From positions 1 through 33,992 of the forward strand of contig PJAB01000213.1 of assembly GCA_002887195.1 (NCBI GenBank): 33,992 nt of DNA. The letters run 5' to 3'. Below the pieces are notes generated by a model. It saw nothing but the letters and a program-made list of their open reading frames with translations. It was not told where the DNA came from and made no database searches. Made by a program: the position numbers and the translations under genes. Of this stretch, positions 1 to 21,888 are shown in pieces. Positions within the stretch are counted from its first letter, which is position 1, and each line of letters opens with the position of its first letter. This DNA is from Chrysochromulina parva (taxonomy: Eukaryota > Haptophyta > Prymnesiales > Chrysochromulinaceae).

Positions 1-314
1 AGAAGGTTGGATCAGCGTTGGGGCTGTATTCTTTTTTCACCTTTTCAAGCATCTCGCGCAGAACAGCGTCGAATTCCATGCAAGTCGTTTCAGTCGGATG
101 GCTGCCTTTTGCAGCTTCCCGCACAGCAAAAGGCATGTCTGTCAAACGGAATGATCGAGGCTCCTCCCGTTTCGTGGACTTGGGCCGGCTTCTGGTTCGG
201 ATCGTCTGTCGAACATGCAAATCCTCTGCAGTCTCCGAGTCCTGCGGCGAATGTAATGTGGCCTCCTCGGTTGCCTGCTGCTCGGCATCACTCATCACGT
301 GCGTGTCGGCCGCG

Positions 315-346
<32 letters not shown>

Positions 347-3300
347 CTCGCCCTCGCCCTCGCCCTCGCCCTCGCCCTCGCCCTCGCCCTCGCCCTCGCC
401 CTTGCCCTCGCCCTCGCCCGTGCCAAGCATGGGCGCGGGCGCGGGCGAGGGCTCGGGCGAGGGCGGAGACAATTCGACAGCTGATGATAGCACCGCTGAC
501 GCCGCCGCTCCGACCGCTGCGATTGCTTTCACTTTGCTGCAATCTCGGCGCACCGAATCACAATAGCTCTTCATCAACGCTCGATAAGTATGGGGGGGAA
601 GCTTGGCCGAGCTGCCGCCTACCGGCGCAAGTTTGTCAGACGCCTGGGACAGCGAGGATTCTGCCATCTGCGAGTGCGGCTCGCCATCTTCAAACTCGTC
701 GTCATCTGAGCTCGATCCGCATTGGGCAGAATGAAGCAGATCTGGCTCATTTCCGTGGCTCTCTCCGTCAGCGCGTCGCGTTGGTCTAACTGTACCTCTT
801 CGGACAGTTTGCGGTACGCCTGTTCGCACCTGCGCACGCTTCCGCAAGCCATGCACAAAGGCAGCGCGTGCCATTTGAAACCGGCGCCTACATGATAGTG
901 CCTCGTCGCCTTGAGGCCAATCTTCGTCGAATATTTCCTCTGAAACACCAGAAGCTCGTGTAAAGTTGAGGCACATGCCCAGGAACGCCCAAGCAATAGA
1001 GTACACGTTTGCCTTGGCCAGGAACTCGTCGCATAGTAGATAGTGCCGCGCAAGAGCCCCTGATAGCTGAAGGTTGATCAAATCAGCTGTGCTCCCACTC
1101 TGGGCTGCCTCGTCGCCTGAGTAAGACCACGCGTATTGCCTGACGCTCGCAGCGGCCACAAAGCTTTGCCGAGGCTGGTAGCTCCTGATCTGTGAAGGCG
1201 GGTCGGTGTACTCAAGTACACCCTTGCTACCCAACTTTTTCTCTACGCCCAGGTCAGCGAGGGCATTTGAAAGGCTGAAAGCCTCGACGAGATCAGTGAT
1301 CGAGCGCAGCTGCACAGATCCATAAGTCAGCTGGCACTCCTGCACGACGGGGGAGTACAACGCCTGCTTGCAAGCCGCCACACCGTCGAGGACCGAGCAC
1401 CACACATTGCCACCAAGATCACAGAGCAGGTCACCCAGCCGCAAGTGATTATGAGAGGGCGCAACTAAGACCTCAGGGTGTGGCAACCTCATCTCCGAAG
1501 ACGCCAAGATGGCCTCGGCTACATCTCTGAAACAGGCCCCATTGAAAAAGTCCCACGATATGAGGTTGAGCTTCTGGAGGGTGCTTCTGACCACGAAGCC
1601 CATGACCTCACCGCCTTGGATTCGTGTAGCTCGAAGAATGACTGAGGCCGCCTTTTCAAGCTTGCTACTGACCATAGGATCTTTCTTCGTCCGATGCGCC
1701 ACGGATTCGACTGCATTCCGTCGAGGACCACGCGGCGATTGCGTCATAGGGCTACCCAACAAGCTCGACCTGCGATCCTGACTCTTAAAGTCATCTGCAA
1801 TGCACCAGCCATGACTAAGCTTCTTTGGAGTCATGGGTTTGTGACAAGTGATCATGCTCCAGATTTCACCAAAGCAAGCGTTCCACAAGTTCTCAAGCAC
1901 TGCGTAGTTCTTGTGCATAATGTCACTACTCACTCGACACGTTGCATCGAGCCAGCTTTGCAGAAGGTACTCTTGCGCCTCGGCCGCCTCAGCAGCTCGC
2001 GCGGCCGCGGCGCTCAGCTCGTCCTCTTTGATTCTCAGGCTCTCGCGTAGGGTCTTCACCGAGGCAGCTGACGCGTTCAGCGATTCCTCTTTGACTATCA
2101 GGCTCTCGCGTAACGTCGCCGCTTCCTTGCGCAGCGTTGCCACCTGGTTCGTGTTTTTGATGTTTGATGAGGAGACAACTGCCGTGCGGATGATGTTGTA
2201 GTAGTGATGCGCAATCTCGCGGGCAATAGTATACGTGTGAAGTTGAAGCTTCAGCTCCGAGATGTGCCGCTCCTCATTCTCGAGGGGTACCTCGACAAGT
2301 AATGTCACGTCTCGCCAACCACACACAGTCGGCCTGCGAAATCGATTTTTGATGCGAACGCATTTGAAATGGGCCCGTAGCGCTTCGATGCCATGCAAAA
2401 GGCTCTCCGCGCTCTCATAGTAAAGGGCAAAGCGTGAGACGTCCTTCACCTGTGCAAGGTTGCCATTGTATTTGACCTTGGCTTTCACCTGGAGACGCTC
2501 CCTACTTTTAAGGCCAGGGTCGTAGCACTCGGCATTGCCCCAACGCTCCATGTTCAGCCCACCCGTTCGAGACTTAGTCGGCCAACGACGTTGCATCTCA
2601 GCATCCGAAATGGGTACCGGCAAACCGAGCAGGCGTTGCTTGATGTACAGCTGAGCGCTGGCTGCCTGCCGCATCAGATTATCGTAGCGACGACTTGCAG
2701 CGATGACGCCCTTGACTCCGCTGCGCCATTCGTCATCGTAACCGAGTGATGGCTGTTGAAGCTCGTGCCGACCATCACGCAACGGGTACTTCTCGCGTTG
2801 TAACTCCCACAGCTCCTCGTCAGCCATGGAGAGCAGCTTATCCAGCGCCGCAGGCTCCATCAGTTCTACGTGGCGGAACTCTACATCATACGCCCGGCAG
2901 CTCATGGCTACCAATTCGGCCAGATCATCAGTTTGGGAGAGGTTCCAATCGGAATTCGCCTTCAACAGTTTCTTTCGAAAGGTCAGTAGCGCTCCCTGCG
3001 CAAGACTTTTGTAACCGACGCATCGCGTGGGGTCGTTGTCCGTCATCATAGACGCGTAAATGCTTGAGAGAGGCTCTAATGAGAGTGCAAGTGCATACGA
3101 AGAAAACTCGGGGAACGAGGCCAGACCACCGTGAATGTCAGCCCGGGCACCCCAGAAATGATCGTCGACAACAACACCGCCATCCCTGTGCGACGCAGGG
3201 ACCGGTGGACCTGGGCCAATGAATCGTTCACTGCTCTGGCCGATCTTGTGAAGCTGCTCGACAATGGATCCGAAATCTTGAGCGCGACTCGTGAGCTCCT

Positions 3301-6300
3301 TCTGACTGCCAACAACCAGGATACTTGCTGCCATGTAATCTCGACCCGTGTGAACGACGAAGAACTTGAGCACGCCGTGACTTTGATGTAATGGAACCAG
3401 ATCCATTTTCTGAGCACCGTCGTAGAGCCGCGAGCACAGAGTGCGCAGCGTCCGAGCGCGATGGTCCACATCTCGTCGGCGCTCACCAGGCAGATTAAGC
3501 ATAGATGGATGCTTTCCAAGAAATACGGGCATCTCGCAGACGGGCTCGTCAAAGTGCTCCCGCATGCTAATGGCAAGCCACGACGATGCCGGATTCGGCG
3601 CGAGGTCAACACCTCGCTCATAGAGAAGCACTTCTTCCAGTGACTGCTGACGACGCTCCCTAAGCACGAGCTCGACGAGGCGACGCGGACGCCACGTAAA
3701 GAAGGCATCATGCTCGGGGCAGCTCACATAGAAGTCAAACTGGTCTATTGGATGAATGTTGACCTCCACTTGATGAATCACGAAGACTGACAGCAGATCT
3801 GGCAGCAGCTTCGAACGCATTCGTACGCATTCGGTGCGATACGTGGCCTGCTTGCAACTGATCTCTAGCTTGGTCATGTCGAGCTTGAGAACCTTCGCGA
3901 TCGCATCGTGGGCGGCGCAGATATGTGCTGGCGGGTCGTCACGCGTCGCCAAGTCTTCACCAGCTTGCGCCGACCCAACACCCAGCACCTTGGCCGCTTT
4001 TAGACGGATGTCTCGCACTCCATGCACCGTGCTCCACGATGCGTTGTGACCGAATTCGTGTGGCCCGAATTTGGAGGACACTACGCCAAGCCTGGGATCG
4101 TTCGACTGAACGGGCTGGCGGAGCATTCTCGCATATTCCATCAAGATGTTGGCCCCGCTGCTGTCTGAGATTAGCGCGTTTACAACGTGGAAGTATCTAG
4201 TTCTTTGTGTATCGCGTCCTGGAGCAGGTGGCTTCTGTACACATTGCACCAGACCGTCGCGCACTTCACGGCGAAGCTTGGCGAGGGCGGCAAATGTTCG
4301 CTCGCCGCAATCGGGCAGAGATCGAATGCGGTCGACAGTTATCCCGAAGTGAACTTGGCTAAGACCTTCTTCTCCCAAGATCTGTTCGTCGCCTGCCAAA
4401 ACGACCTGAATGCAGCTGTGCCCTTTCCTTAGCCGGCTCTTTTGCGCCTGCAGGCTGCCGATCTGGATGTACTCGCCCCAGTCATTGGTCCAGTTCACGA
4501 AAACATCCAAAATGGAGATAGTCTGCTCTGCCGGATGTAGCCAGGCTTCACCATTTTCCTTCTTCGCCCCTTCGCACCGCTTGAGCCAGCCGGAGTCGGA
4601 GTCCCGTAGCCTTCGCCTACGAGTATTGAGCGCGCTTCCCGAGGGCTCGATGACGCAAATCTCCACCGCTTGCGTCGTTTCCGAATGTCCAAGAAGCGGC
4701 TGCCGGAAGACTGTGTGTCCCGTTCGTCGACTATGGCATTCTAAATGGCACTTTCGAGGATCAAGCTCGACGGCATTTCCATAGGCATCCTCGGCACTCA
4801 GTGTCACTGATGCCTTGAAAAAGTGACCGTTGGCAACCGATGGAGGACACTCGATGTAAGCAGATGCGCCGTCTGCCTTGATTGGGCCAGGGACAACATG
4901 GAAGCCATGCTGCCAAATAATTGATCGCTGAGCGTCCAGCAAAGGTACAGGCGTCTCGTCGTCTAGTCGCACGGTGAGCTCGTATGCACCAGACTTGGTA
5001 ACAATCTGAGATATCTGAAACTGGAAGCTTTCCGTCGGCTCGAGGACGCCTTGTGCCACAAGCTCATAGCGCGAGCCATCCTCGGTCTCGGAATGTTCAG
5101 CCAGCTTTCGCGTGAGCCTCCACACCATACCTTTGGTGAGCCACACCTTCGGTGCCAGTGGCCGTCGGCGGTGGCCTTTAATACCTGGTTCAGGCCACTT
5201 GCGTCTGACAATTGTGTTGCCCATCAGGAGCCCTTCCTCGTCGTCGTCGTTTTTGCTCGCCAAGAATTCCTCTTCATGCGAGCTCTCGGGTGGTGGCACA
5301 TCCACTTTCTCGTCGGCTTCCGCTGATGCTGGAACCCAAACCACCTCGGTCATGACGAGATGGAGATGCTGACCGGCTTGCAATCTGGGCCGGTTGCCAT
5401 GCTCAATCAAGAGCCCCTGGACTACCAACGAAATCGGATTGCGCAGCTCGATCTCGTGTAGGTCACTTGTCCAAACGTCCTCCGTGTCCTTGTCCGAGCA
5501 GACGCTCACTTCGACGGCGAGCACACCCTCGGCGAACCCAACGAGCTTCACCAGGTCAGTGCGGCTGGGCAGCGAGGCATGCCATGTGCATCTCGACCAC
5601 TCAGGCGCCACCGGCGGCGGCCGGAACCCCCATTCACGTGTCGGATGCTGCTGATCCGGCGCCTCGACAGCTTGCTGAAAGTACTCATCGTCCACCTGAA
5701 TGAAACTGTCAACCTTGAGAAGCGGCACTTTGATGTTATCGAGCTCCTCTTTGGTGAACTCTTGCTTGTCGCGCAGTGCGTCCCTGAGCTCCTTGCAGAA
5801 GATTTCGGGACCCCTTGTCGGCCTATTGCGACCTAGATTCTTCCACATCAAGCCAAATGCCTTGATATCCCTTGTGGCATTGACTGTGAACACGATGGCA
5901 CCGTTCTCAAGCCGTATCAGGAGGTCAGTCGTCTCTGAAGGAAGGACACCCAAAGTCACCACGGTAAGGACGGGCGTCTCGTCTAGCGAAACTGAAACCG
6001 AAACCACTGATGGCGAGTTGTCCAAAGCGATCTCACCGACGTAAAAGGAACACATATCTCGCGGGAGTAGCAAAAAGCTTGATGTATTCAGAGAAATGAC
6101 AGCAGGTCGCTCCATCATCCGTCCAGGGTTCAGATCCTCGGGTGTTGGTCGCACGTAACTGGGACGTTCATCACGGCTGTCGAATAGCTGCACGCCAACC
6201 TCCTTACGTGACTTGTCCGTATCGCAGTAGCCGTGGATGAGGCCTCCCGCAATAATGTAGAGCGGACCGCACGCACAGCAACTGTGGGAGATGCGGCAGC

Positions 6301-8149
6301 TGCCACGACGATCAAAACCAGGTCGCACCTTGATGTGCTCACGCCACTCATTCTGCTGAAGGTCATAAGTCCAGACCTCCTTGCCGATGCTCAAGTGTGT
6401 GCCCGCGCCACCATCTAAGTACAGCTTGTCTGCAATACAGCACATTGTATGCAGAGTTCGCCCGCGAGGACATAGCTGGTTGGCTCCCCCTGGAGGTGAA
6501 AGCTTGGACCACGAAGCGACCACTACAGCGGAATCGCCCTGGCATTTGAGCTCCCAAAGCTCGGCAGACAAACTACCACTGTCGAGTGTACCGCCATGCA
6601 AGTAGCCCACCTCTCCACGGCTACACATGGCATGCCCAGCGCGCGCTGTCGGCGATCGGGCTCCATGTGTCTTGACGGTCGTCCATCTCCATGCAAGGTC
6701 GTGGCTAGGTAAAAACTCTGTCAGCGTGAGGCAAAACAGGTCGTTGGACAAACGACCACCATCGTCCGATCCACCAAACACGATGATCCGTGCAAGCCGC
6801 CGAAAGTGCGCGAGGCGGTCGAGATTATCTGGAGCAGGTGCAGAGTACATGGCAGCGTTACGCCGAACGGGTGGTGCGCCGCCAGCTTGTTGAAAGTACT
6901 CGCCATCCACGGTTATGTAGCTATCATCGGTTAGGTCCGGAACGTTGAGTGCGCTCACCTCAGCTTTGGTGAAGTCCTGCTTCCTGTGTAGGGCTTGTTG
7001 GAGCCTTTCACTAAAGACTTCGTTGCCGACCGTCGGTCTTTCGGAGCCAACCTTCTTCCACTTGCATCCAAGTGTTCCCTCCACAGGCGGCTCGCTCCAC
7101 TCCTTCGTCCGCAAGTTGTACGTGACGAGGCGAATGTGTGCCTCACCGGGCATGGCAAGGAGAAGAGCAATGGTGCGGTTAGATGCCCAGCCGATAGCTT
7201 CGGCGCCGAGCAGCTCGGAGTTTGCCAAGAGGTGTGTTGGAGGCATTGGCAGCCCTATGTCACCTTTTTCACCTGGGGCTGTGAAGGCCTTCCACCCTGT
7301 CACCCACGCCATCATCTGATCCTTTAGCAACTGTGGCTGCTCTGGCGGTGGCCCTTCCAGCTGTATGGTTGCTCCGAGCGTCGAGTCCGATGCTTGAAAG
7401 GCCTTTGGCGGAGGAGAAGGAATAGAAGTCGTGGTCGCAACACTTTGGACGAGCTGCCGTAACCGTGCAACCAGTTCGCTATGGCGCTGAAGAGGTGCTG
7501 TGGCCTCGACCGCTGATGATGCAGCTACATCCGATGACGGCAGGACCTCTGACGCTGATGCTTGCGGAGCTCCCACTAATGAAGTGGACTCGTCGGAGGC
7601 AACGCTTGCAGCTCTCAGTCGATGGCGAGGACTCGAGGATGGACGCAAATTGAGTGTTGCATTTCGGACTGATCGTGCCGACTGCGGTCGGCTCGCAGGT
7701 AACGATGATTCACGCGAGGCTTGCAAAATGGTGGCAGTCCGTGGCGATGACTCAACCCATGTCCTCATAGGCGCCACAGGCAGGGTGGTGCGTATTTGCG
7801 TGGCAGAGGGCGGCCGTGCGTGCACCGTCAGTTGCACGCCCGACAATGCACCTGAGTTGAGCGGCGCTGATGCATCCAGCGAGCTCGCGTCCGGAAATGC
7901 CGCGGTCGTGAGAAACACTGCAGTTGTGACATCATCACGCCACAACGGATCTGCTGTGATTTGCTGAGTCCATGTGGTTCGTGAGGATTGTATGAGCCTG
8001 AAGGACTCGTTGCCCTTTGTGTTTGCCTTAACGATCGCATGACGGCGAGGCGACGGCGTCGAGCGCTTGTTGCCCCGTGGAGAGCGGTCGGCATTCGCAG
8101 TCGCCGCAATCAACCAGCCTGCCCGTGCCAAGGCCGCGTTCTCGCTCAT
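1..8149 (-). CDS. Giant kelch / filamin-like / RelA-SpoT-like multidomain protein (3' end beyond window)
   Basis: I read every codon from the ATG at 8149 down to base 2 and found no stop: 2,716 codons without an intron, continuing past the left edge. An in-frame TAG at 8186-8188 lies 12 codons before the ATG. Residues 1-240 are Ser/Ala-rich and look disordered. Residues 430-660 carry kelch-type repeats (VFGGSDDGGRLSNDLF, GHAMCSRGEVGYLHGG, LYIIAGG). A ~63-residue module occurs twice, at 364-426 and 768-830, around the propeller. Residues 1047-1145 resemble a filamin/ABP280 repeat (SGAYELTVRLDDE, HVVPGPIKADGASAY, DAYGNAVELD). Residues 1885-1987 resemble a RelA/SpoT fold (KYNGNLAQVKDVSR, KNRF, GWRDV, ELKLQLHTY), followed by a coiled coil (1999-2073). 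Residues 2579-2610 are (Glu-Gly)16 with one Lys. The rest is unassigned. Kelch and filamin folds bind partners or actin, so a scaffold role is plausible; nucleotide synthesis is unproven. G+C is lower than in neighbouring genes. Confidence 0.85.
320..415. repeat. (GCCCTC)16 hexanucleotide microsatellite in coding sequence
   Basis: There are sixteen tandem 6-bp units, one of them GCCCTT. On the minus strand they encode a Glu-Gly run with a single Lys inside the giant protein. The unit length is a multiple of three, so copy-number change keeps the frame. All other frames are also open here, which creates spurious Pro-Ser, Pro-Arg and Ala-Leu frames. Confidence 0.95.
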
Positions 8150-8155
8150 CGCGTT

Positions 8156-8503
8156 TGCGCAATCCGCAAGACCGACCACTGGGACCTAATGAACAGAACC
8201 GTATAAGCGGCGAACAGATGGTTGTGCTGGTTAGCGCTGTGCGCTGTGTTGCTGTTCACTGCAGCTGCTCAACAGTGTTTCACACCGAAACGGCGCCGCG
8301 ATGTGAGTTTACAGTTTTGAAACGAGTCAAATACCAAAACCACGTTCACTTTCACACCGAGGGACCCCGGAAATCCTCTAAACTGAAACTCACATTGCGG
8401 CGCCGTATCACAAGGTGTGAAACAGCAAACACCCACACCGACGCTTCTCTTCGCCGCTACTGTACACAGGAGGTCCCTGGTGGTCGGTCTTGCGGATCAC
8501 GCA
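8156..8503. mobile_element. Degenerate long inverted repeat (fold-back / MITE-like element)
   Basis: The outer arms 8156-8186 and 8472-8503 are near-perfect reverse complements sharing the core ATCCGCAAGACCGACCA. The inner arms 8277-8317 and 8380-8423 also pair, sharing CGGCGCCGC and ATGTGAGTTT. Weaker pairing links the stretches between them (AGCGGCGAA). Together they form one palindrome with arms of about 120-160 bp and a 62-bp loop. The trinucleotide GTT flanks both ends and could be a target-site duplication, though 3 bp can match by chance. No transposase frame is present. A recombination-derived palindrome without transposition is the alternative. It abuts the start codon at 8149, so it would contribute the 5' leader of the giant gene. 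Confidence 0.6.
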
Positions 8504-8839: not shown

Positions 8840-11644
8840 TTACGACCCCTCGCTGGGAACTTTCGATCTGCTTGCGAATGCCCACTGCAACGCCGCAAGG
8901 GCGACGTCGGGCGGCTCAGCCACCGACTCGCGTAGCACTGCGCTCGAGAGCGCCTCGAAGACGACCGCCGCCGCCGCGGCCGTTGCTTGCGCATCCGCAC
9001 CCTCAGCCCGTCCAACGTTGACAGCTTGCACTGCAGCGTCGACCTCGAGCTGGAGCAGGTGGCGGCGAGCGACCGCCTCGCAGTGCCTGCGACCCTCTAG
9101 GTGAGCGCGCATGTGGTGCGGCGTCCCCAAGCCACTCTGGCAGACGACACACTGGCGCAGCCCGAGCGCATGTGTGCGCCCCGGCACGGCAGTGAGCCTC
9201 GCCGTCGCCGCCCGCGCGGCCGCTTGCAGCTCCGACACCCACTCGTTCCACAGCGACTCATTCCAAAGCGGGCTCTCCACAGCATGGGCGCCGTGCTGGG
9301 CGCCGTGCTGGGCGCTCTGCTCGGCGCTCGCGCCGTCGTGGTTGCCGCTCACTGCTGCTGCTGCTGGGTCCGCTCCAGCTGCCCTGCGCAACTGGCCTGG
9401 AGGCGCCCTGCTGAGGGGTTGTACCCCCCCCTTAGCCCCACCGCTGGACGGGCAGCTCGGCGCTCGACTCGGCGTGCCGCTCGGGAGCCTCCTGACATAC
9501 GCTAGCAGAGGCTCCATGACGCAGCGGACTTCGGCGCCAATCGTGCCGTTGTCGCCCTCTGCCTCACCCTCTGGCTCGGCCTCGGCAGGCGCATCCCTCG
9601 GCGCATGCATGGCGCCGTCGTGGGCACGCCATCCAGGCAGCCGGCGTGCTTGGGTCACGCAGAGCGCGCACGCCTCGAGGGTCGTGAGGCGCCCCTTGCC
9701 GGAGCCCTGATGCAATGCCTCGATGAGCGGTGACGTGCACGCCCGCACGGCGACCTCATCGAGACCGACGTAGCGCAGGTCAACGGGCGCCGTGATGGGC
9801 GCCGTCGTGGGCGCCGCCGCATGCGCCGCCGTGGGCACCGCCTCGCGCGCCGTCGTGGGCGCTGCCACACGCGCCGCCAGAGTGCGAACGAGGGCGCGAG
9901 TACACTCCCACGAGCCATCGGGCACGATGAGCGTCAGAGCCGCCCGCGGCGAGCCACACGGCCTTGGGCGCGGCCTTGAGCACGGCGGCGCGCCCTCGTC
10001 ATCAGCGTCATCATCATCATCAGCGCCATTCGCGCCATCAACGTCTTCAGCGGTCCTTGCACGCCAGCTCGCTAGGGCGGCGCTGAACGCTTGCTCGACC
10101 GAGGTCGCCTCGGCTGCAGGCGTACCCGGCGGCGGCGGGAAGAGCAAGTACACGACACCCTCGGCTGGGTGGAGTAACGCCTCAAGCCGCGCAACGTCGC
10201 ACGACGCGCCGTAGACGAGTAGCTCGCTCGTGTCGAGTCCGCTCACGCCCCCAGCGTGCAGCAGCTGTGCAGCGAGCCGAGCAGTGGACGTGGATCGTAG
10301 GAGCTCAATGGGGTGCGCGAGGAAAGCCCAGTGCACGGTCGGGACGACGCGGGTGCGGCGGGCGGCATCGGGCTCCGCTCGGGACGACGCGGGTTCGGAC
10401 TTGCGGACCGCCTGCTCGCGCAGCAGGCGTGCCTTCTTGAGGCCCGTGTCGAAGGCGGCGCAGAGGCAGCGTGCGGTGCTCGAGCGGGGTGGATCGGGAG
10501 CCGGCCATGTGCCTCTGCCCTCCTCATCCTCCTCGCATGCGGACCCATATAAGGAGAGTGCGTCTTCCTCGCATGCGGACGAGGACGATGGTGATCGTCG
10601 CGGCGGCGGGGAGGAGGAGTTGGTGGAAGAGGAGGAGTTGGTGGAGGAGGAGGTGGTGGTGGTGGTGGTGATGGGCACCCAGCAGTAGCGGCACGTGTGG
10701 CTCCGTAGGGCCGCCTCGCATGCTATGCGGACGGCCGCCTCGGCACACGAGAGAAGTCGATCGGGCGGTGGCGACGGCTGTGCTAGAGCGTCTGCTACTG
10801 CCCTCTGCGCTAACTCGAGCGCCGTCTCGGCTCCGGGTCCCGCCGCTGCGACCGCACCGACGAGCCGGTCCATCGAGGCGCGAAAGGGCAACGGCGGAGG
10901 AGGAGCGACCTCAATCGTGGGTGGCCGAACGTTCGGCGGAAAACTCGGCGGCGTTGGCGGCAGTGCACTCGCTCTCGGGCTGCCGCCGCCGCCGGGCCGC
11001 CGGCCGACAAGCTGCGTCACGATGGCAGGCCCTCGGTGGAAGCGGCCCTCGTCTACCCGCCGAGCCACCTCCTCACATCGCACCATCTCCAGCACGCCTT
11101 GAAAGTCAGCCACTAGCTCGGCTGCACCGACGAGCAACGCGGCATCCGGTCCCGTGCGGCTCCACATCTTGCCGTGCTCTGCTGTGCCCAGCGACGCGTG
11201 CGCAGGCGCGAAGCATTCGATGACGAAGAGGCCACCAGGGCGCAGCGCCGTTGCGCACGCACGGTGGAGCCGACGGCGAGGCTCCGCTGGCAGTGCACAA
11301 AAGATCGAAAGCACCACATCCCAGCGAGCCTCCGCCGCGCCGCCCAGCGGGTCGTAATGGCACAGATCGGCATGGATCGTGGTCACCCGCGATCCGACGT
11401 GCCGTTCCGATGCGAGCGCCTCCGTCTTGGCGAGCCCGACGGCCGAGAGATCCACCGCCGTGCATTGGTGGCCGAGCGCGGCGAGGTGCACGACGTTGCG
11501 CCCTTGACCCTCGCCCAACGAGAGGACTTCGAGCGGCCGCGTCGCGGGTGGCAGGAGTGTCGACGCGATCACACGGACGAACTCGTTGGGTTCTTTGCCG
11601 TAGGCGTAGCCTTTGCGGTACCGCGCGTCGTAGTCGACTGCCAT
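8840..11644 (-). CDS. SAM methyltransferase - DTW domain - C2H2 zinc finger fusion protein
   Basis: This is a single 934-residue frame from the ATG at 11644; the frame extends upstream only to a GTG at 11725. Residues 1-220 form a class I SAM-dependent methyltransferase of TehB/thiopurine type: a YDARYRKGYAYG start, motif I VLSLGEGQGRN (40-50), an acidic strand TAVDLS and the post-motif RPGGLFVIECF. From about 315 a DTW domain begins: zinc-ligand-like CRYC and CLC pairs, AHPIELLRSTSTARL, VPDGSWECTR (~574, the degenerate DTW signature) and GRLTTLEAC (~655). DTW enzymes transfer the aminocarboxypropyl group of SAM to tRNA uridine (TapT, DTWD1/2). Residues 826-855 form a C2H2 finger of matrin/JAZ type (CVVC...HMRAHLEGRRH), a type that often binds RNA. 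Low-complexity Thr/Ser and Ala/Thr inserts interrupt the DTW part. I infer an RNA-modifying enzyme; the methyltransferase substrate is unknown. Confidence 0.85.
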   Translation of the reverse strand: MAVDYDARYRKGYAYGKEPNEFVRVIASTLLPPATRPLEVLSLGEGQGRNVVHLAALGHQCTAVDLSAVGLAKTEALASERHVGSRVTTIHADLCHYDPLGGAAEARWDVVLSIFCALPAEPRRRLHRACATALRPGGLFVIECFAPAHASLGTAEHGKMWSRTGPDAALLVGAAELVADFQGVLEMVRCEEVARRVDEGRFHRGPAIVTQLVGRRPGGGGSPRASALPPTPPSFPPNVRPPTIEVAPPPPLPFRASMDRLVGAVAAAGPGAETALELAQRAVADALAQPSPPPDRLLSCAEAAVRIACEAALRSHTCRYCWVPITTTTTTSSSTNSSSSTNSSSPPPRRSPSSSSACEEDALSLYGSACEEDEEGRGTWPAPDPPRSSTARCLCAAFDTGLKKARLLREQAVRKSEPASSRAEPDAARRTRVVPTVHWAFLAHPIELLRSTSTARLAAQLLHAGGVSGLDTSELLVYGASCDVARLEALLHPAEGVVYLLFPPPPGTPAAEATSVEQAFSAALASWRARTAEDVDGANGADDDDDADDEGAPPCSRPRPRPCGSPRAALTLIVPDGSWECTRALVRTLAARVAAPTTAREAVPTAAHAAAPTTAPITAPVDLRYVGLDEVAVRACTSPLIEALHQGSGKGRLTTLEACALCVTQARRLPGWRAHDGAMHAPRDAPAEAEPEGEAEGDNGTIGAEVRCVMEPLLAYVRRLPSGTPSRAPSCPSSGGAKGGVQPLSRAPPGQLRRAAGADPAAAAVSGNHDGASAEQSAQHGAQHGAHAVESPLWNESLWNEWVSELQAAARAATARLTAVPGRTHALGLRQCVVCQSGLGTPHHMRAHLEGRRHCEAVARRHLLQLEVDAAVQAVNVGRAEGADAQATAAAAAVVFEALSSAVLRESVAEPPDVALAALQWAFASRSKVPSEGS

Positions 11645-11900
11645 AGATAAGCTAAATTCCGGGATTCTGTGCCGTCCAAGGTGATTTGCATGAAAACATG
11701 TGACGCGAACACGGAGGTTTATCACGAGGGATTGCGGTTCATCATCGAAACCACCCCAGGGCTCGCCCCCAAACGACGGGAATAGGCTTCGTCAGAACTT
11801 TCATTAGCGTCGAAGAAGGTGCAGGTCAAGCGTCAACTGACGAGCTCGTCGCGCACAGTCATCCCTCCCGCCCATCGTCTCCATCGTCGAAACAGGAACC
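11645..11900. promoter_or_regulatory. Divergent intergenic region, putative shared promoter
   Basis: These 256 bp separate the start codons of the minus-strand methyltransferase-DTW gene and the plus-strand SHIPPO gene, so they must hold both promoters and 5' leaders. I see no clear TATA box or named ciliary X-box. The role is assigned from gene orientation only. Confidence 0.5.
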
Positions 11901-15267: not shown

Positions 15268-18200
15268 ATGCGGCAACGTTTTTCCCAAAAAGGCAATCCT
15301 ACGAGAGCGGCTCTCGAGTCTCTGTCGCCCCTGGCAGGGCAACACATGCCGCTCCTGAAGGTGCTGTCGCTCACATATGGCACGAAAAAGAAAGAGCCAC
15401 CTGAAGAGCAGAAAAAGGCAGGCCAGGCCAGGACGACAACGACGCATCAGCGCCTTCAAAAGCAAATTTTGGATGAGATAGCGACTGAGAAGCAGGAGAC
15501 GGAGGCGAGGCGTGCCGCCGTAGCCGTTGAGCACACTCGCGCTCGGGCGGTGGCGGAGCGCCTCGAAGCCCAAGTCGCGGAGGCCGAGGAGGCGGAGGCC
15601 AGGGAGCCGGCAGGCAAGGCGGCCGAGGCACAGCTGCGCGAGATCGAGAGGGAGCTCGGCGAGGAGAAGATGAGGGAGCTCGAGGAGGTGCTTCGAGCCC
15701 AGAGGCTGGCCACGCAGAGTCTTTACAAATCGATCCTACCGCCCGGCGGCCCTCCTCCAGCTCCGCTGCAGGGTCCAGCCTCGCGCACAACGAAGCTCAC
15801 CCACGCCAAGAGCGTGGCTGGCACTAAGGCTGGCACTCCGGACCATGCCGTCGGGCCTGAGGTTGTTGAGCGGGGCGGTCGCAGCGGAACAACCTCCGTA
15901 CCGGTACCAATGACGAGAGTGGAGGAGAAGCAGGCGGCCAATGCGGCCAAAGCGGCGGCGAGTGCGGCGGCGAGTGCGGCCAAATCGGCGGCGAAGGCGA
16001 AGGCGGCCGAGGAGGCGGCCACGGCGCGTGCGCGAGCTGCCGCCAGCAAACAGGCTGCCGAGGCCGAGAGCGCGCGCGCCAAGGCGGAGTCGAAGGCGCA
16101 GAAGGTGGCGCAGAAGGCGGCGGCGCAGGCGGCAAAGAAGGCGCCGAAGATGAAGCAGGAGGTGAAGCCTGTGGCCGCCACGAGTGAGGAGGAGGAGCGC
16201 CTCGCAGCCGCGGCGGCCAGGGAAGCCGCGGCCGAGGCACAGCTGCGCGAGATCGAGAGGGAGCTCGGCGAGGAGAAGATGAGGGAGCTCGCGGAGGAGC
16301 TTCGAGCCCAGAGGCTGGCCACGCCATCGCCAGGCGGCTACGTGCTCACCGCCGGTGCGGCCGCCAAGGGGGCGCGCGAGAAAGCCGCGGCGGAGACGCC
16401 GGTTGCAGAGAAGGCGGCTGCGGAGAAGGCAGCAGCAGAGAAGGCCGAGAAGGCCGCGGCAGAGAAGGAGGCGGCCAAGACCAGCCATGCTGGCGTCGGC
16501 TTGGTCGCGAAGCCGGAGGAGCACCTCACAGGCGCGTCGCCGTCGGCCAAGGAGGCCGCCGCCGAGGCACAGCTGCGCAGGATCGAGATAGAGCTTGGAA
16601 CCGAGAAGATGCGCGAGCTTGAGAAGGCGCTCGGGCTCGAGAAGCTCCTCGAGCTCGGGGCCGAGATGGATCCCGAACCCGAGCCCGCTCCCGCCAAGGT
16701 CAAGGAAGAGGTCGTGAAGCTCAATCCAACGGCCGCTGCTACCGCCGCGCCTGCCGATTCCATCAACCAGGGCTTCCACCCGAGCTACAATTGCGACCGA
16801 TCGGGCATGAGCCCAATCAAGGGCATTCGCTACCACCTGCGCGGCCAGAATTACGATATTTGCCAGGCGGAGTACGATAAGCTGCACGCGAAAGAGCAGA
16901 AATTGTACGAGGCCATCCCTCCCCCCTCCACCGGCGGCGGCAGCGAGCTGCTCCGGGAGCTCGAGAGGGCGCAGGGGGGCCAGAAGGGCGGTTATGTGTT
17001 CACCGTCGATGGCGCTGCCGACGTGAGTGAGCAGCTTGGCGTGATGCTGTCCGTGGGCGATTTTCTGACGGTGCCGCTGCTGGACGCCATGCGTGAGGAG
17101 ATGCAAGTGCCGTCCAGCACGTCCAACGACCAGCTCAAAGACGCGTTGCGGTCCCAGGGCTTCCTCGAACGAACGTCGGCGGCGCCACAGTCCAGGGTAG
17201 ACGTGGCTGCACGCAAGGGGGCTGAGGACCCGGCTGCCATGGGGGGGCGTGAGAACGAGGCCACGATCGACCAGTCCGAGAACGCCACATTCTTTGCACC
17301 CGCCTTCGCGAATGCGGCGGAGAAGGCGCCATCCAAGACGGCGGGGGCGGAGAAGACGACTGCGGAGAAGGCGGCGGCGGCGGGAAAGGTGGCGGCTGAG
17401 AAAGCAGCTGCTGAAAAGGCGGGAGCCGAGAAGGCGGCGGCGGAGAAGGCGGTGAAAGTGGCGGCTGACAAAAAAGCGCGCGAGACGGCCGCGACTGAGC
17501 TGGCTGATGAGAACGCCCGGGCTTCCAAGGCCATCGGGCATCGATCCAAGAACCGATCGAAGAAGATGACGAGCCCTGAAGGACAGAGGAAAGCGCCAAG
17601 GGCGGGAGAGGCTGCGAAGGAGGAGACCACTGAGCCAGTGAAGGCAAAGATGGCCCCGCAGAATGATGAGGGTGCACCAGTGGCCCTCGGCACAGATGAG
17701 TTCGCGGCCACGCGCCACGACGGCCGAACGACCATCTATTGCGGGCGCAAATTCGTTCGAGATGCCAGGCTCTCTCCCCGATGCGGCCCCACATGCGGCC
17801 CTGCGTGTGCCTCATGCGAGCGCTTCCTTGCGAGCCTCGTCAACGACGAGGGCGACGCCGTCGCGTTTGGAACGAGTGACGGATGGCGTGAGACCCTCTA
17901 CTGCGGCAGACCCAAGGGTCTGAGCGAGATCCCGGGCTCCGACGGCACTTGTGGACCTGAAGACGGACCGTCATGCCCTTCGTGCCGCCGGCTCCTCAGT
18001 GAGCTCACCCCGCCTTACTGGTACAAGAACAGTCGGCAAACTACCGGCATCGACTCGGACGGGACCAGTGCTGCGTTTCCCGCGGATCTGCTACCCGAGG
18101 AAGGGGCCTTTCCTTGTGATGATTCCGACGCGAATCAGATCGAGAAAGCGATAGCCGAACTTCGCGCCATGCACCTGCCCCGGCCTCCTCGAGCACCCGC

Positions 18201-21200
18201 CCCTCCAAAAGCTGCGGAATCACGCCTTCACGGCCGCTGGTTTGACATGATTGTGCCCTCCTACTTTCGATCCAGTGTTGACACCGCCGTCGCGCCCGTG
18301 CCCGCCCCTGTCGCGCCCGTCGTCGCGTCGTCCTCGTCGCGTTCAAGGCGGCTGGAAGGTGGGCGGTTGGAAGAGACCTTTGTTCAGAGCGAGACAGACG
18401 AGGATGACGTTGAGCAGAGAATGATCGCACTGGGCGTGTCGCCGTCGAAAGCTGCGATACCCTTACCTCGCGAGGAGGGATATCTGCCCATAGCAGACCG
18501 ACCAGGAGGAAATGCGGTCGACTCTTGGCTCCTCGACGTCGCCTCGAACTTTGACGGGCAGCTCGATGTGAACAAGCTGTTTGGCACCCTTTGCTGCGCG
18601 CATCGCAAGGATCCGATTGACATTATCATTCAAAACACTCCCGCGAAGGGATCGCCGACGGTGATCACCACCAAGCTCGAAGAGCCGCAACCAGGCCCGC
18701 TGCCACCTCAGCCAGGCCCGCCGCAGCCAGGCCCGCCGCCGCCGCACCCAGGCCCGCCGCTGCGCCTCATCGACTTCTCCATTCTCGACGGGAGCCGCGC
18801 CGAGATCCCTGAGCCCGCCACGGCTGAGCAGACCGCGTCCGAACAAGAAGCCAGAGAGAGGGCAGCAGCCGAGATTGAAGAGATGGCCGTCCAGACTGGC
18901 AAGCAGCTCTGTGCATGGGAGACCGAGGTGGAGGCGGTCCGTCAACGCATAGCAGACCTGGAGCGCAAGATGGCCAAGGGCGATTCGACCGAGGATGAGC
19001 GGCTGGACCTTGCCGGCGCGCAGGAGACGCTCGCGGCTCTGGAGGCATCTGTCAGGACGGGCAGAGAATTGCAGCAGGCTCAGGCTGAGCTGGCGGCCGA
19101 GGCGGCGGCGATCAAGGAGGTTACGCGGCTGCGCGAAGCTGCACGGCAGCATGCAAAGGCCCAGGCGCTCTGTCGCGCCGCCATCCGCAAGCACGAGTCA
19201 GGCGACTGCAAGGGGGCTCTCGGACTGCTCGAGGAGGCAATCGGCCTCGACCCGCAGACGCCCAATTATCTCCTGAGGGCGGGCGACATGCATCTGAAGC
19301 TCGGGGCGCCCGAGATGGCGCTGGCGATGTACGAGCGCTGCCAAAAGCTCCTGCTCTCGCCGTACCAATCGACGAGACTCGACCAGAAGCTGACGCTCTC
19401 CCGCGCGGCCGCCCTCGGCGGCATGATCGGAAGCGAGGTCCTCTGCCGCCAAGATGTGAGGAGGGACGAGCTGCAGGAGCTTGCCAAGGTGGAGTCTGTA
19501 GAGGATGAGGAGCCTCACGAAGCGCCCGCCTCAATCGCAGATCAGATCGCGGATCTGATTGCTGCCACGACGCAGCATGCGGTACAAGTGGAGCGTTCGG
19601 CGATGGGGAGACATATCTCAGTCTCGATGATGGCGGCGGCACTCGTACTTGCTGCCGACGACGATGAGCCGCCGACCCCGCCACCACGGTCGGGGCGGCC
19701 GCCGCCGTCGCCGGCGCCACCACAGAGTGGCAATGGTGCAGCCCCTGCCACCGATCCGGCGGCCGAGCCGGCCGCTGTGCCCGAAGCTCCTTCGGGAAGT
19801 CAGACCTGGCTCGAATCCTCCTCAGCCGCTATCCTCGCTGCTTCCTCCTTCCTCGCTGGGGGACTCGCTGCGAACCTCTCACGAGAGCCATCGAAGCCAT
19901 TAGCAAACCTGAGTAGCCTCAGCTGCGACGGTTGCCATAGTGCCCTGCTGCTGGACGAGATGGTCCACTCCAATAGCGATTTCAACCTTGACTATTGCCG
20001 CGCGTGCTACGCGAGATTGCCCGTCGACATGAGGGAAGGCCTGTTCGTGCAGCCGGTCAACCAGAGGTGTGGGGTCTGGTTCCATCCCTCGACTGAGCAG
20101 GCAATGGAGGCTGAGATTGCCATGGAGGCCGAGTTGAACGCAGCGTCCAACGCCGCTCCTTACTCGACCGACCAGCCCGACAAGCCCGGCTTCACAGACT
20201 GGAGCAGGCTGCTTCCTCCCAGCCTGCTCGAGACGTTCGAAGATGATTCCGAGGAGCACGCCGAGATGAACGCCGAGACGAAGGGGATGGTGCGTGCGAA
20301 ACCGACCCGCGGACAGACGCCGGCACAAGCGGCGCTCGAGGCGGCGCAGGCCGAGGAGCACGCCGCGATGGAGGCGGTGGCGCGTGCGAAGGCGGCGCGG
20401 GAGCGCGCGCGCCAAATGGCCCTCGAGGCCGAGGAGGAGGAGCTCCGTGCCGAGCGAGCTCTGCGTGAGCAGCAGCAGGCGAAGGCATTGGCGCGCGCGC
20501 AGGCGGCGCGTGAGCGCGCGCGCCAGCTCGCTCTCGAGACCGAGGAGGCCCGGCATCACGAGGCGGTCAAGGATGCCGAGAGGCTTGCAGCCGAAGAGGC
20601 TGAGGTGCAGGAAAGTGCGCGCGTCGAAGCCGAACGGCAGCGTTCTGAGGCCGTAAAGGAGGCAGAGGCGGCCGAGCTGGCCAAGGCGGCGGCTGCGGCC
20701 GAGGCCGCGGCGGCTGCCGAGACGGCTGCGTCCGCGTCAGCCCCCATAGGCTCGTTGGCGCCCGCTGCTATGCATTCGCCGTGCCCTGCCTCAGCGGAGG
20801 CGACCTCGCCAATGGAGCCCTACGGCATGCAGATGCCCACCCCGAGTTCGTGTGGCAAAAGGCTGCAGCAGAAGTCGAAGCCGTTTTGGGAGCTCAAGGA
20901 GGAGGAGGCAGCTGAGAAGGTGGGCGCGGTGGCGCAGGACGCGTTGGAAGCGAGCCGGGTAGCACAGCTGGCCGAAGTCACAGCCGAGATCGAGAAGTCA
21001 GGCGTGCTGGACGGTCTCACATCTGTTGAGCGGCAGAGCATCATCCAGAAGTTGCACGCTGAGATGGATGAGGCCGACGATGACGACGACGAGTTTCTGG
21101 ATGAGCTGAAGATGCAGCTGCAGGCGAAGCACAAGTCGAAAGCGGAGGATCTGGCTCCATCATCGGCGCCGCCAGAGGCGCAAAAGTCGACGCGACGCTT

Positions 21201-21888
21201 CTCGGTGGTGGTACCTGCGAAGCTTCAAGCCGGCGCTACGATGAAGACCCTTCTTGATGGTCGAGTTATAAGGCTCATCGTCCCGAGGACGCTGCGTGCC
21301 GATCGCATGATCGTGGTTGATGAGACTGGGCAAGTCATTGGCAACGCATCCCCCGCATCCGCCGCGCCCATCGCGCCCATCGCGCCTGCCGCGACCACCA
21401 CGCCAGCCGCGCCCGCGCCCGCCGCACCCACAGCAACGCCCACAGCCGTAAGGGCGGCTGCAAGGGCGGCCACGGGCTACACCCCGGAGTCTCCGGCCAC
21501 GCGCCGCAAGCAGATGCGAGCGCCCGGGGCCGCGCGCCACTCGCAGATGCGTTGGCTCGAGAAGCGCCTCGAGCAGGTGGAGCTAGAAGTGTGGAAAGAC
21601 GCGCTTCTGGACAATCCGGAGAGCTTCGATGCGCTTCTGGAGGAGGCATATGGTGAGCAGCTGGGCTGGAGCGATATGAGTGGCACAGATATGTCCGACA
21701 CCGAAGGCATCCAAAGCGGTGGCACCAGCCAGCGGAGTAGAAGGCATCTGGACGATCTGGACGGCTCCGACTCGGAGGCGGAACTGGAGGCTATGCTCGC
21801 CGCGGCGATGGCACGCAAGTACGGCGGCGGAATTGCGCGCTCGAGATCGAGCACTAGAGGTATTCGTGGGCCCGACGTGCTTATCTGA
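15268..21888 (+). CDS. Large coiled-coil scaffold with ZZ-like motifs, Cys-rich modules and TPR
   Basis: This is a single 2,206-residue frame without introns, from the ATG at 15268 (a second Met lies at residue 27). Order of parts: a helical repeat AAEAQLREIERELGEEKMRE at 119, 322 and 432; long Ala/Lys/Glu helices (about 215-298 and 685-738); a ZZ-like motif at 504-550 (CDRSGMSPIKGIRYHLRGQN, then YDICQAEYDKL) lacking most Cys ligands; and two tandem Cys modules at about 811-905 (YCGR...CGPxxGPxCxSC). These are followed by a Pro-Gly tract (1142-1165), TPR-like helices (1301-1375, GALGLLEEAIGLDP), a second CxxC...CxxC motif (1553-1590), an Arg/Glu coiled coil (1685-1823) and a segment at 1978-2022 (FSVVVPAKLQAGATMKTLLD). 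No catalytic domain is visible. A structural or adaptor role is inferred, possibly ciliary from its SHIPPO neighbour. Confidence 0.75.
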   Translation: MRQRFSQKGNPTRAALESLSPLAGQHMPLLKVLSLTYGTKKKEPPEEQKKAGQARTTTTHQRLQKQILDEIATEKQETEARRAAVAVEHTRARAVAERLEAQVAEAEEAEAREPAGKAAEAQLREIERELGEEKMRELEEVLRAQRLATQSLYKSILPPGGPPPAPLQGPASRTTKLTHAKSVAGTKAGTPDHAVGPEVVERGGRSGTTSVPVPMTRVEEKQAANAAKAAASAAASAAKSAAKAKAAEEAATARARAAASKQAAEAESARAKAESKAQKVAQKAAAQAAKKAPKMKQEVKPVAATSEEEERLAAAAAREAAAEAQLREIERELGEEKMRELAEELRAQRLATPSPGGYVLTAGAAAKGAREKAAAETPVAEKAAAEKAAAEKAEKAAAEKEAAKTSHAGVGLVAKPEEHLTGASPSAKEAAAEAQLRRIEIELGTEKMRELEKALGLEKLLELGAEMDPEPEPAPAKVKEEVVKLNPTAAATAAPADSINQGFHPSYNCDRSGMSPIKGIRYHLRGQNYDICQAEYDKLHAKEQKLYEAIPPPSTGGGSELLRELERAQGGQKGGYVFTVDGAADVSEQLGVMLSVGDFLTVPLLDAMREEMQVPSSTSNDQLKDALRSQGFLERTSAAPQSRVDVAARKGAEDPAAMGGRENEATIDQSENATFFAPAFANAAEKAPSKTAGAEKTTAEKAAAAGKVAAEKAAAEKAGAEKAAAEKAVKVAADKKARETAATELADENARASKAIGHRSKNRSKKMTSPEGQRKAPRAGEAAKEETTEPVKAKMAPQNDEGAPVALGTDEFAATRHDGRTTIYCGRKFVRDARLSPRCGPTCGPACASCERFLASLVNDEGDAVAFGTSDGWRETLYCGRPKGLSEIPGSDGTCGPEDGPSCPSCRRLLSELTPPYWYKNSRQTTGIDSDGTSAAFPADLLPEEGAFPCDDSDANQIEKAIAELRAMHLPRPPRAPAPPKAAESRLHGRWFDMIVPSYFRSSVDTAVAPVPAPVAPVVASSSSRSRRLEGGRLEETFVQSETDEDDVEQRMIALGVSPSKAAIPLPREEGYLPIADRPGGNAVDSWLLDVASNFDGQLDVNKLFGTLCCAHRKDPIDIIIQNTPAKGSPTVITTKLEEPQPGPLPPQPGPPQPGPPPPHPGPPLRLIDFSILDGSRAEIPEPATAEQTASEQEARERAAAEIEEMAVQTGKQLCAWETEVEAVRQRIADLERKMAKGDSTEDERLDLAGAQETLAALEASVRTGRELQQAQAELAAEAAAIKEVTRLREAARQHAKAQALCRAAIRKHESGDCKGALGLLEEAIGLDPQTPNYLLRAGDMHLKLGAPEMALAMYERCQKLLLSPYQSTRLDQKLTLSRAAALGGMIGSEVLCRQDVRRDELQELAKVESVEDEEPHEAPASIADQIADLIAATTQHAVQVERSAMGRHISVSMMAAALVLAADDDEPPTPPPRSGRPPPSPAPPQSGNGAAPATDPAAEPAAVPEAPSGSQTWLESSSAAILAASSFLAGGLAANLSREPSKPLANLSSLSCDGCHSALLLDEMVHSNSDFNLDYCRACYARLPVDMREGLFVQPVNQRCGVWFHPSTEQAMEAEIAMEAELNAASNAAPYSTDQPDKPGFTDWSRLLPPSLLETFEDDSEEHAEMNAETKGMVRAKPTRGQTPAQAALEAAQAEEHAAMEAVARAKAARERARQMALEAEEEELRAERALREQQQAKALARAQAARERARQLALETEEARHHEAVKDAERLAAEEAEVQESARVEAERQRSEAVKEAEAAELAKAAAAAEAAAAAETAASASAPIGSLAPAAMHSPCPASAEATSPMEPYGMQMPTPSSCGKRLQQKSKPFWELKEEEAAEKVGAVAQDALEASRVAQLAEVTAEIEKSGVLDGLTSVERQSIIQKLHAEMDEADDDDDEFLDELKMQLQAKHKSKAEDLAPSSAPPEAQKSTRRFSVVVPAKLQAGATMKTLLDGRVIRLIVPRTLRADRMIVVDETGQVIGNASPASAAPIAPIAPAATTTPAAPAPAAPTATPTAVRAAARAATGYTPESPATRRKQMRAPGAARHSQMRWLEKRLEQVELEVWKDALLDNPESFDALLEEAYGEQLGWSDMSGTDMSDTEGIQSGGTSQRSRRHLDDLDGSDSEAELEAMLAAAMARKYGGGIARSRSSTRGIRGPDVLI
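15622..15715 (+). repeat. Intragenic direct repeat, copy 1
   Basis: This 94-bp stretch is almost identical to 16231-16324, differing in the reading GAGGAGGTG versus GCGGAGGAG near its 3' end. It encodes a Glu/Arg-rich helix. A more diverged third copy begins at 16561. Confidence 0.9.
16231..16324 (+). repeat. Intragenic direct repeat, copy 2
   Basis: This is the second copy of the 94-bp unit at 15622-15715. The high DNA identity, including third codon positions, indicates recent duplication or gene conversion. Confidence 0.9.

Follow-up and report, generated by a model that had tools for sequence, protein, structure and literature searches.

The window analysed here, 33,992 bases of Chrysochromulina parva DNA that make up an entire contig (C213; PJAB01000213.1 of assembly GCA_002887195.1), carries at one end an open frame for a giant protein (P0001; 2..8149, minus strand). 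This protein joins a kelch β-propeller, a pair of immunoglobulin (Ig)/macroglobulin-like β-sandwiches and a divergent RelA/SpoT-like (RSH-like) domain. Our tentative reading is that of a single-frame gene for a giant signalling protein derived from STAND/NLR proteins, in which an RSH-like nucleotidyltransferase core would be switched by sensing parts. If true, the presence of such a domain in giant proteins of STAND type would suggest that alarmone-type nucleotides have a further use. The clade supplies a defined, assayable core (residues 1864-1990), and the family brings out a recurrent uncharacterised domain (referred to as the W domain).

The open frame is part of one conserved gene

As the initial annotation had claimed, no stop interrupts the minus frame between the ATG at 8149 and base 2, a run of 2,716 codons. 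Given the local base composition, such a run would be open by chance with a probability of ~10^-46. Because the window is the entire contig, the left edge of the frame is the contig end, which cuts the frame after residues 2711-2716 (2..19, minus strand) and before any stop.

Protein searches, in which the candidates having most words in common with the query were scored, returned a small set of homologues. The whole-protein query matched only P0002 (7,987 candidates scored), a metagenome protein of 3,167 residues that is 91% identical (2,220 of 2,453 aligned positions) and runs uninterrupted from residue 280 through 2716, continuing for 725 residues past the window edge. A query with residues 1800-2095 revealed P0002 and P0003 (3,590 candidates), and one with residues 1040-1500 of P0003 revealed P0003 itself, P0002, P0004 and P0005 (7,466 candidates). 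P0003 aligned in three blocks (684-918 at 26%, 921-1389 at 30% and 1420-2404 at 38%) and P0004 over 988-2404 at 37% (with an alignment start at about 920 or 988). The order of the parts was kept in both, and the kelch part lies outside the coverage of both. Since P0002 is open across the edge and P0003 and P0004 share the chain in the same order, the sequence comparisons indicate that the frame is part of one gene of about 3,160-3,440 residues. The encoded protein looks like a member of a real, conserved and uncharacterised family with unnamed relatives in environmental DNA.

These homologues also bear on the explanation that separate genes share one frame by chance, or that the frame is an assembly artefact. 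There is a single genome assembly, the contig end cuts the gene, and the GC content at third codon positions (GC3, 0.61) is below that of the seven other window frames measured (0.64-0.77). However, P0002 is unbroken from 280 to 2716 and past it at 91% identity, and P0003 and P0004 preserve the arrangement in separately aligned blocks of 26-38% identity, so that we regard this highly improbable explanation as ruled out by the homologues.

The initial annotation had also described the frame as intronless, which holds over the part in common with P0002. The N-terminal extension formed by the first 279 codons (7313..8149, minus strand) and the start site are uncertain because P0002 begins at residue 280, and the coding status of the extension is doubtful on its GC pattern as well: codons 1-200 (0.565/0.645/0.575 by codon position) deviate from the frame as a whole (0.62/0.47/0.61), whose pattern elsewhere is that of coding sequence. 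No relative gave convincing coverage of residues 1-279 in the protein-homologue comparison, and a GTG at 8179 lies upstream of the ATG in the same minus frame. A single-frame gene is not exceptional in this genome, as an actin gene on C85 is likewise in one frame; other actin-family matches (e.g. on C1397) are fragmented. The actin matches are also what marks the genome as eukaryotic. The proposed leftward extension to a stop was not obtained: the 725-residue remainder known from P0002 was not located in the assembly (45.07 Mb in 2,199 contigs), where one of the three scored candidates matched, a NACHT paralogue.

A divergent RSH-like domain with a conserved acidic pair

Matches at the level of paralogue, profile and fold support a divergent domain of synthetase fold at residues 1864-1990 (2180..2560, minus strand), so that the RelA/SpoT-like segment of the initial annotation was right in kind. 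PF04607 itself failed to score on the window protein, whether whole or as a segment (Pfam, E up to 10). It did match a paralogous domain of the genome above cut-off (L006, 1.3e-7) and two of the seven members of the RSH-like alignment A4 (best 5.3e-9). A profile of seven RSH-like sequences in turn recovered Tas1 (7.2e-8) and YwaC (1.7e-6), and the predicted model, weak at this domain, matched RelP/SAS2, SpoT and RelSeq. With 57% identity to P0003 and 54% to P0004, the domain is the best-conserved part among those covered by these two homologues; the unassigned region and the macroglobulin-like pair reach 35-43%, and residues 2216-2410 reach 48-49%.

Across the seven RSH-like sequences, 12 columns are invariant, including an Asp and a Glu aligned with those of YwaC and Tas1. 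The two residues (D1903 and E1965 here) are retained in all 15 aligned rows, canonical RSH included, and we take them to be the metal-binding Asp and the catalytic Glu, respectively. Compared with the synthetase domains of RelP, RelQ (YwaC) and Tas1, the likeness thus comprises fold, motif order and the Asp/Glu pair. The giant protein differs from these in that the domain sits in a giant chain and lacks PKPNGYx[SG][LM]H, and from RSH proteins in that no hydrolase, TGS or ACT parts were found in Pfam scans.

The loss of that stretch weighs against an enzymatic core. Where canonical domains carry the substrate stretch KDY..PKPNGYx[SG][LM]H, the window has KNRFRRPTVCGWRDV, and the PKPNGY..H part is absent from 11/11 RSH-like rows and present in 4/4 canonical ones. 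The same gene and domains could accordingly be read with the RSH-like domain as a pseudoenzyme, a nucleotide- or protein-binding module within a scaffold, and we regard this as a serious possibility. It would fit the replacement of Lys by Glu in three of the four family members, and also the degenerate neighbouring parts, namely the lack of Walker A in all four of P0001-P0004 and the loss of the HGD loop at residues 2233-2257. It fits less well with an acidic pair kept in 15/15 rows, with the RSH-like domain being the most conserved of the domains that P0003 and P0004 cover, and with Tas1, the best solved match and an active enzyme, likewise lacking the SLH motif in the alignment. From the aligned sequences, the choice between enzyme and pseudoenzyme appears nearly even; the acidic pair, the strong constraint on the whole domain relative to the other parts compared, and the Tas1 precedent make us lean slightly towards an enzyme.

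The window domain groups with RSH-like domains of NACHT, leucine-rich repeat (LRR) and MORN proteins of the genome and with those of bacteria, apart from four canonical RSH domains of the genome. Domains of the same kind occur in L004 (NACHT, with sub-threshold WD40), L005 (LRR) and L006 (MORN). Beyond this genome, the RSH-like domain of the Myxococcota giant protein P0005 is 33.6% identical over 119 residues (E 1.5e-17), and the same stretch is carried by L048 at 100%. P0005 differs from the giant chain in bearing annexin, and kelch and NACHT were without match in its Pfam scan. The P0005/L048 protein, from a Myxococcales metagenome-assembled genome, has 4,329 residues; besides the RSH-like domain it contains annexin repeats and, close to its C-terminus, a sub-threshold APH match.

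Among side observations on RSH genes, an RSH-like domain within an LRR frame and a canonical RSH gene are neighbours on opposite strands of G000:C436 (1831-2217, minus strand, and 4490-4974, plus strand). Canonical RSH matches are present on six contigs of the genome, which may hint at a plastid without showing one. Residues 2003-2069 (1943..2143, minus strand), following the RSH-like domain, look like a coiled coil by eye only and were helical in neither test.

NACHT kinship beyond the edge and a possible TCAD9-like segment

Past the window edge, P0002-P0004 run on with NACHT-like, fn3-like and C-terminal segments. The NACHT-like segment is homologous to the NACHT domains encoded on C1122 and C317 of the genome (score 52.5, probability 94.5%), with none of 200 column shuffles scoring as high (maximum 21.4). 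The genome yields 17 NACHT matches, 13 of them over cut-off. The fn3 matches were all below cut-off (P0002, 4.3e-5; P0003, 0.0012; P0004, 0.0024), and the Walker A pattern (GxxxxGK[ST]) was found in none of the four proteins P0001-P0004.

Upstream of this segment, residues 2216-2410 (920..1504, minus strand), 48-49% identical to P0003 and P0004, form a possible TCAD9-like, degenerate phosphotransferase-like segment. The hhalign comparison gave a score of 26.0 (P 0.0075), which none of 200 column shuffles equalled (maximum 24.3); before P0004 was included, P was 0.02 and the probability 2.3%. Since the hhalign probability is 5%, we treat the TCAD9 likeness as a lead only. Within the segment, HNHLRLGDLLCDLGGNVWCSVLDGV aligns with the HGDL....N...D.....WLID loop of the TCAD9 domains of four genome frames. 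The kinase-like HGDxxxxN loop is not kept at residues 2233-2257 (1379..1453) of the window protein, which has HNHLRLGDLLCD. TCAD9 (PF19974) gave no Pfam match in the segment (E up to 10), and the AlphaFold2 model of residues 2060-2440 had a predicted local distance difference test score (pLDDT) of 36.

On C1122 and C317, TCAD9 is followed by NACHT in a single frame, in the order of the possible TCAD9-like and NACHT-like segments of P0002-P0004. Unlike in these STAND NTPases, Walker A is lacking in P0001-P0004, the kinase-like HGD loop is absent, and neither segment is seen by Pfam. We connect TCAD9 with STAND proteins through the name that Pfam gives it and through this genome; 'TCAD9' and 'TCAD' do not occur in the main text of PMC7159879. 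Two TCAD9 frames of the genome carry other domains as well: one joins an RNA 2'-phosphotransferase (Tpt1/KptA, 1.2e-49) with TCAD9 (L037, G000:C558), and the other (L038, G000:C317) combines a NUDIX match just below cut-off with TCAD9 and NACHT. The initial annotation had mentioned neither the possible TCAD9-like segment, nor the NACHT-like and fn3 segments past the edge, nor the two W-domain copies described below.

Kelch propeller, W domains and β-sandwiches

The kelch propeller named in the initial annotation was borne out by PF24681, which matched residues 453-636 (6242..6793, minus strand) at 4.2e-21 and 75.7 bits against a curated cut-off of 50, so that kelch repeats are present; by eye, the propeller possibly starts near residue 305. 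In this it resembles kelch proteins (KLHDC2/KLHL20/DRC7 propeller model). The giant chain differs from them in that Pfam scans show neither BTB nor another usual partner domain, and in that a W domain appears by eye to be inserted near the first blade. The W domain is an uncharacterised domain of ~65 residues that sequence matching places at 30 sites in the genome. Two of these are in the window: residues 364-422 (6884..7060, minus strand), by eye within the propeller, and residues 769-827 (5669..5845, minus strand). Comparisons with Pfam and the Protein Data Bank gave nothing convincing for it. Its matches often lie within very long frames, one of which also has NACHT (C26).

Residues 1001-1255 (4385..5149, minus strand), the filamin-type repeat of the initial annotation, resemble two Ig/macroglobulin-like sandwiches in the structure-model search, an assignment to the general fold class only. 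Top rows were complement C3, C5, TEP and A2M; filamin was not among the 50 rows listed, which excludes nothing. The filamin repeat model gave no match up to E 10 on the whole protein or the segment (HMMER's filters discard the majority of matches with E over roughly 0.1), and filamin kinship is unsupported beyond the fold class. Comparison of the whole protein with NCBIfam yielded three weak rows, all well under their cut-offs (E 0.048 to 0.29). Residues 1256-1863 (2561..4384, minus strand) are conserved at 35-43% to P0003 and P0004; Pfam (E up to 10) was blank for most of them, and the structure model was too low in confidence to interpret.

A propeller together with Ig-like sandwiches might also suggest a cytoskeletal cross-linker of kelch/filamin type that acquired an RSH-like domain. 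Yet no filamin, calponin-homology or other actin-binding match appeared in Pfam scans, and the sandwiches are just 35-36% identical to P0003 and P0004 (the propeller, outside their coverage, is not comparable), making this explanation improbable.

A possible mode of action

In the signalling reading, the chain would descend from this eukaryote's repertoire of STAND/NLR-like proteins, its switch parts having decayed and its RSH-like domain having been kept. After the RSH-like domain come a possible TCAD9-like segment and a NACHT-like segment, both lacking the motifs customary for catalysis or ATP binding. Docking and sensing could fall to the kelch propeller, the Ig/macroglobulin-like pair and the W domains, as well as to a cyclic-nucleotide-binding domain that P0003 carries (7.8e-18). 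Binding of a ligand or partner to them might rearrange the chain and thereby switch the RSH-like domain, which may then move pyrophosphate from ATP onto a nucleotide or RNA end, giving a cytosolic alarm signal. A more far-reaching version, which we consider rather unlikely, would make this a new NLR-like eukaryotic family in which the NACHT switch is dead, an RSH-type nucleotidyltransferase is the conserved effector of a cytosolic alarmone-type immune or stress signal in some single-celled eukaryotes, and the domain shares its origin with that of Myxococcota.

That no described protein has this combination was uncontradicted in the literature searched; public sequence collections do hold unnamed homologues. 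In the library searched, no paper was found combining kelch, NACHT and either 'RelA SpoT' (an under-count, as the slash spelling escapes the phrase) or ppGpp, nor one combining SpoT, NACHT domain, leucine-rich repeat and protist. The eukaryotic RSH proteins covered by a 2011 survey (PMC3153485) are for the most part plant/algal RSH and Mesh1, a hydrolase, plus a few scattered divergent synthetases; its main text mentions neither kelch nor NACHT.

Other features of the window

The same-strand neighbour upstream of the giant frame, ending at 8840, is a 961-residue frame (8840-11725, minus strand), apparently a fusion of a methyltransferase, at the N-terminus, with a DTW domain. The gap between the two holds two nested 24-nucleotide inverted-repeat pairs (92% complementary; 8156-8503 and 8287-8409). 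A second giant frame (15268-21888, plus strand) encodes 2,206 residues, with a ZZ zinc finger as its sole domain above cut-off.

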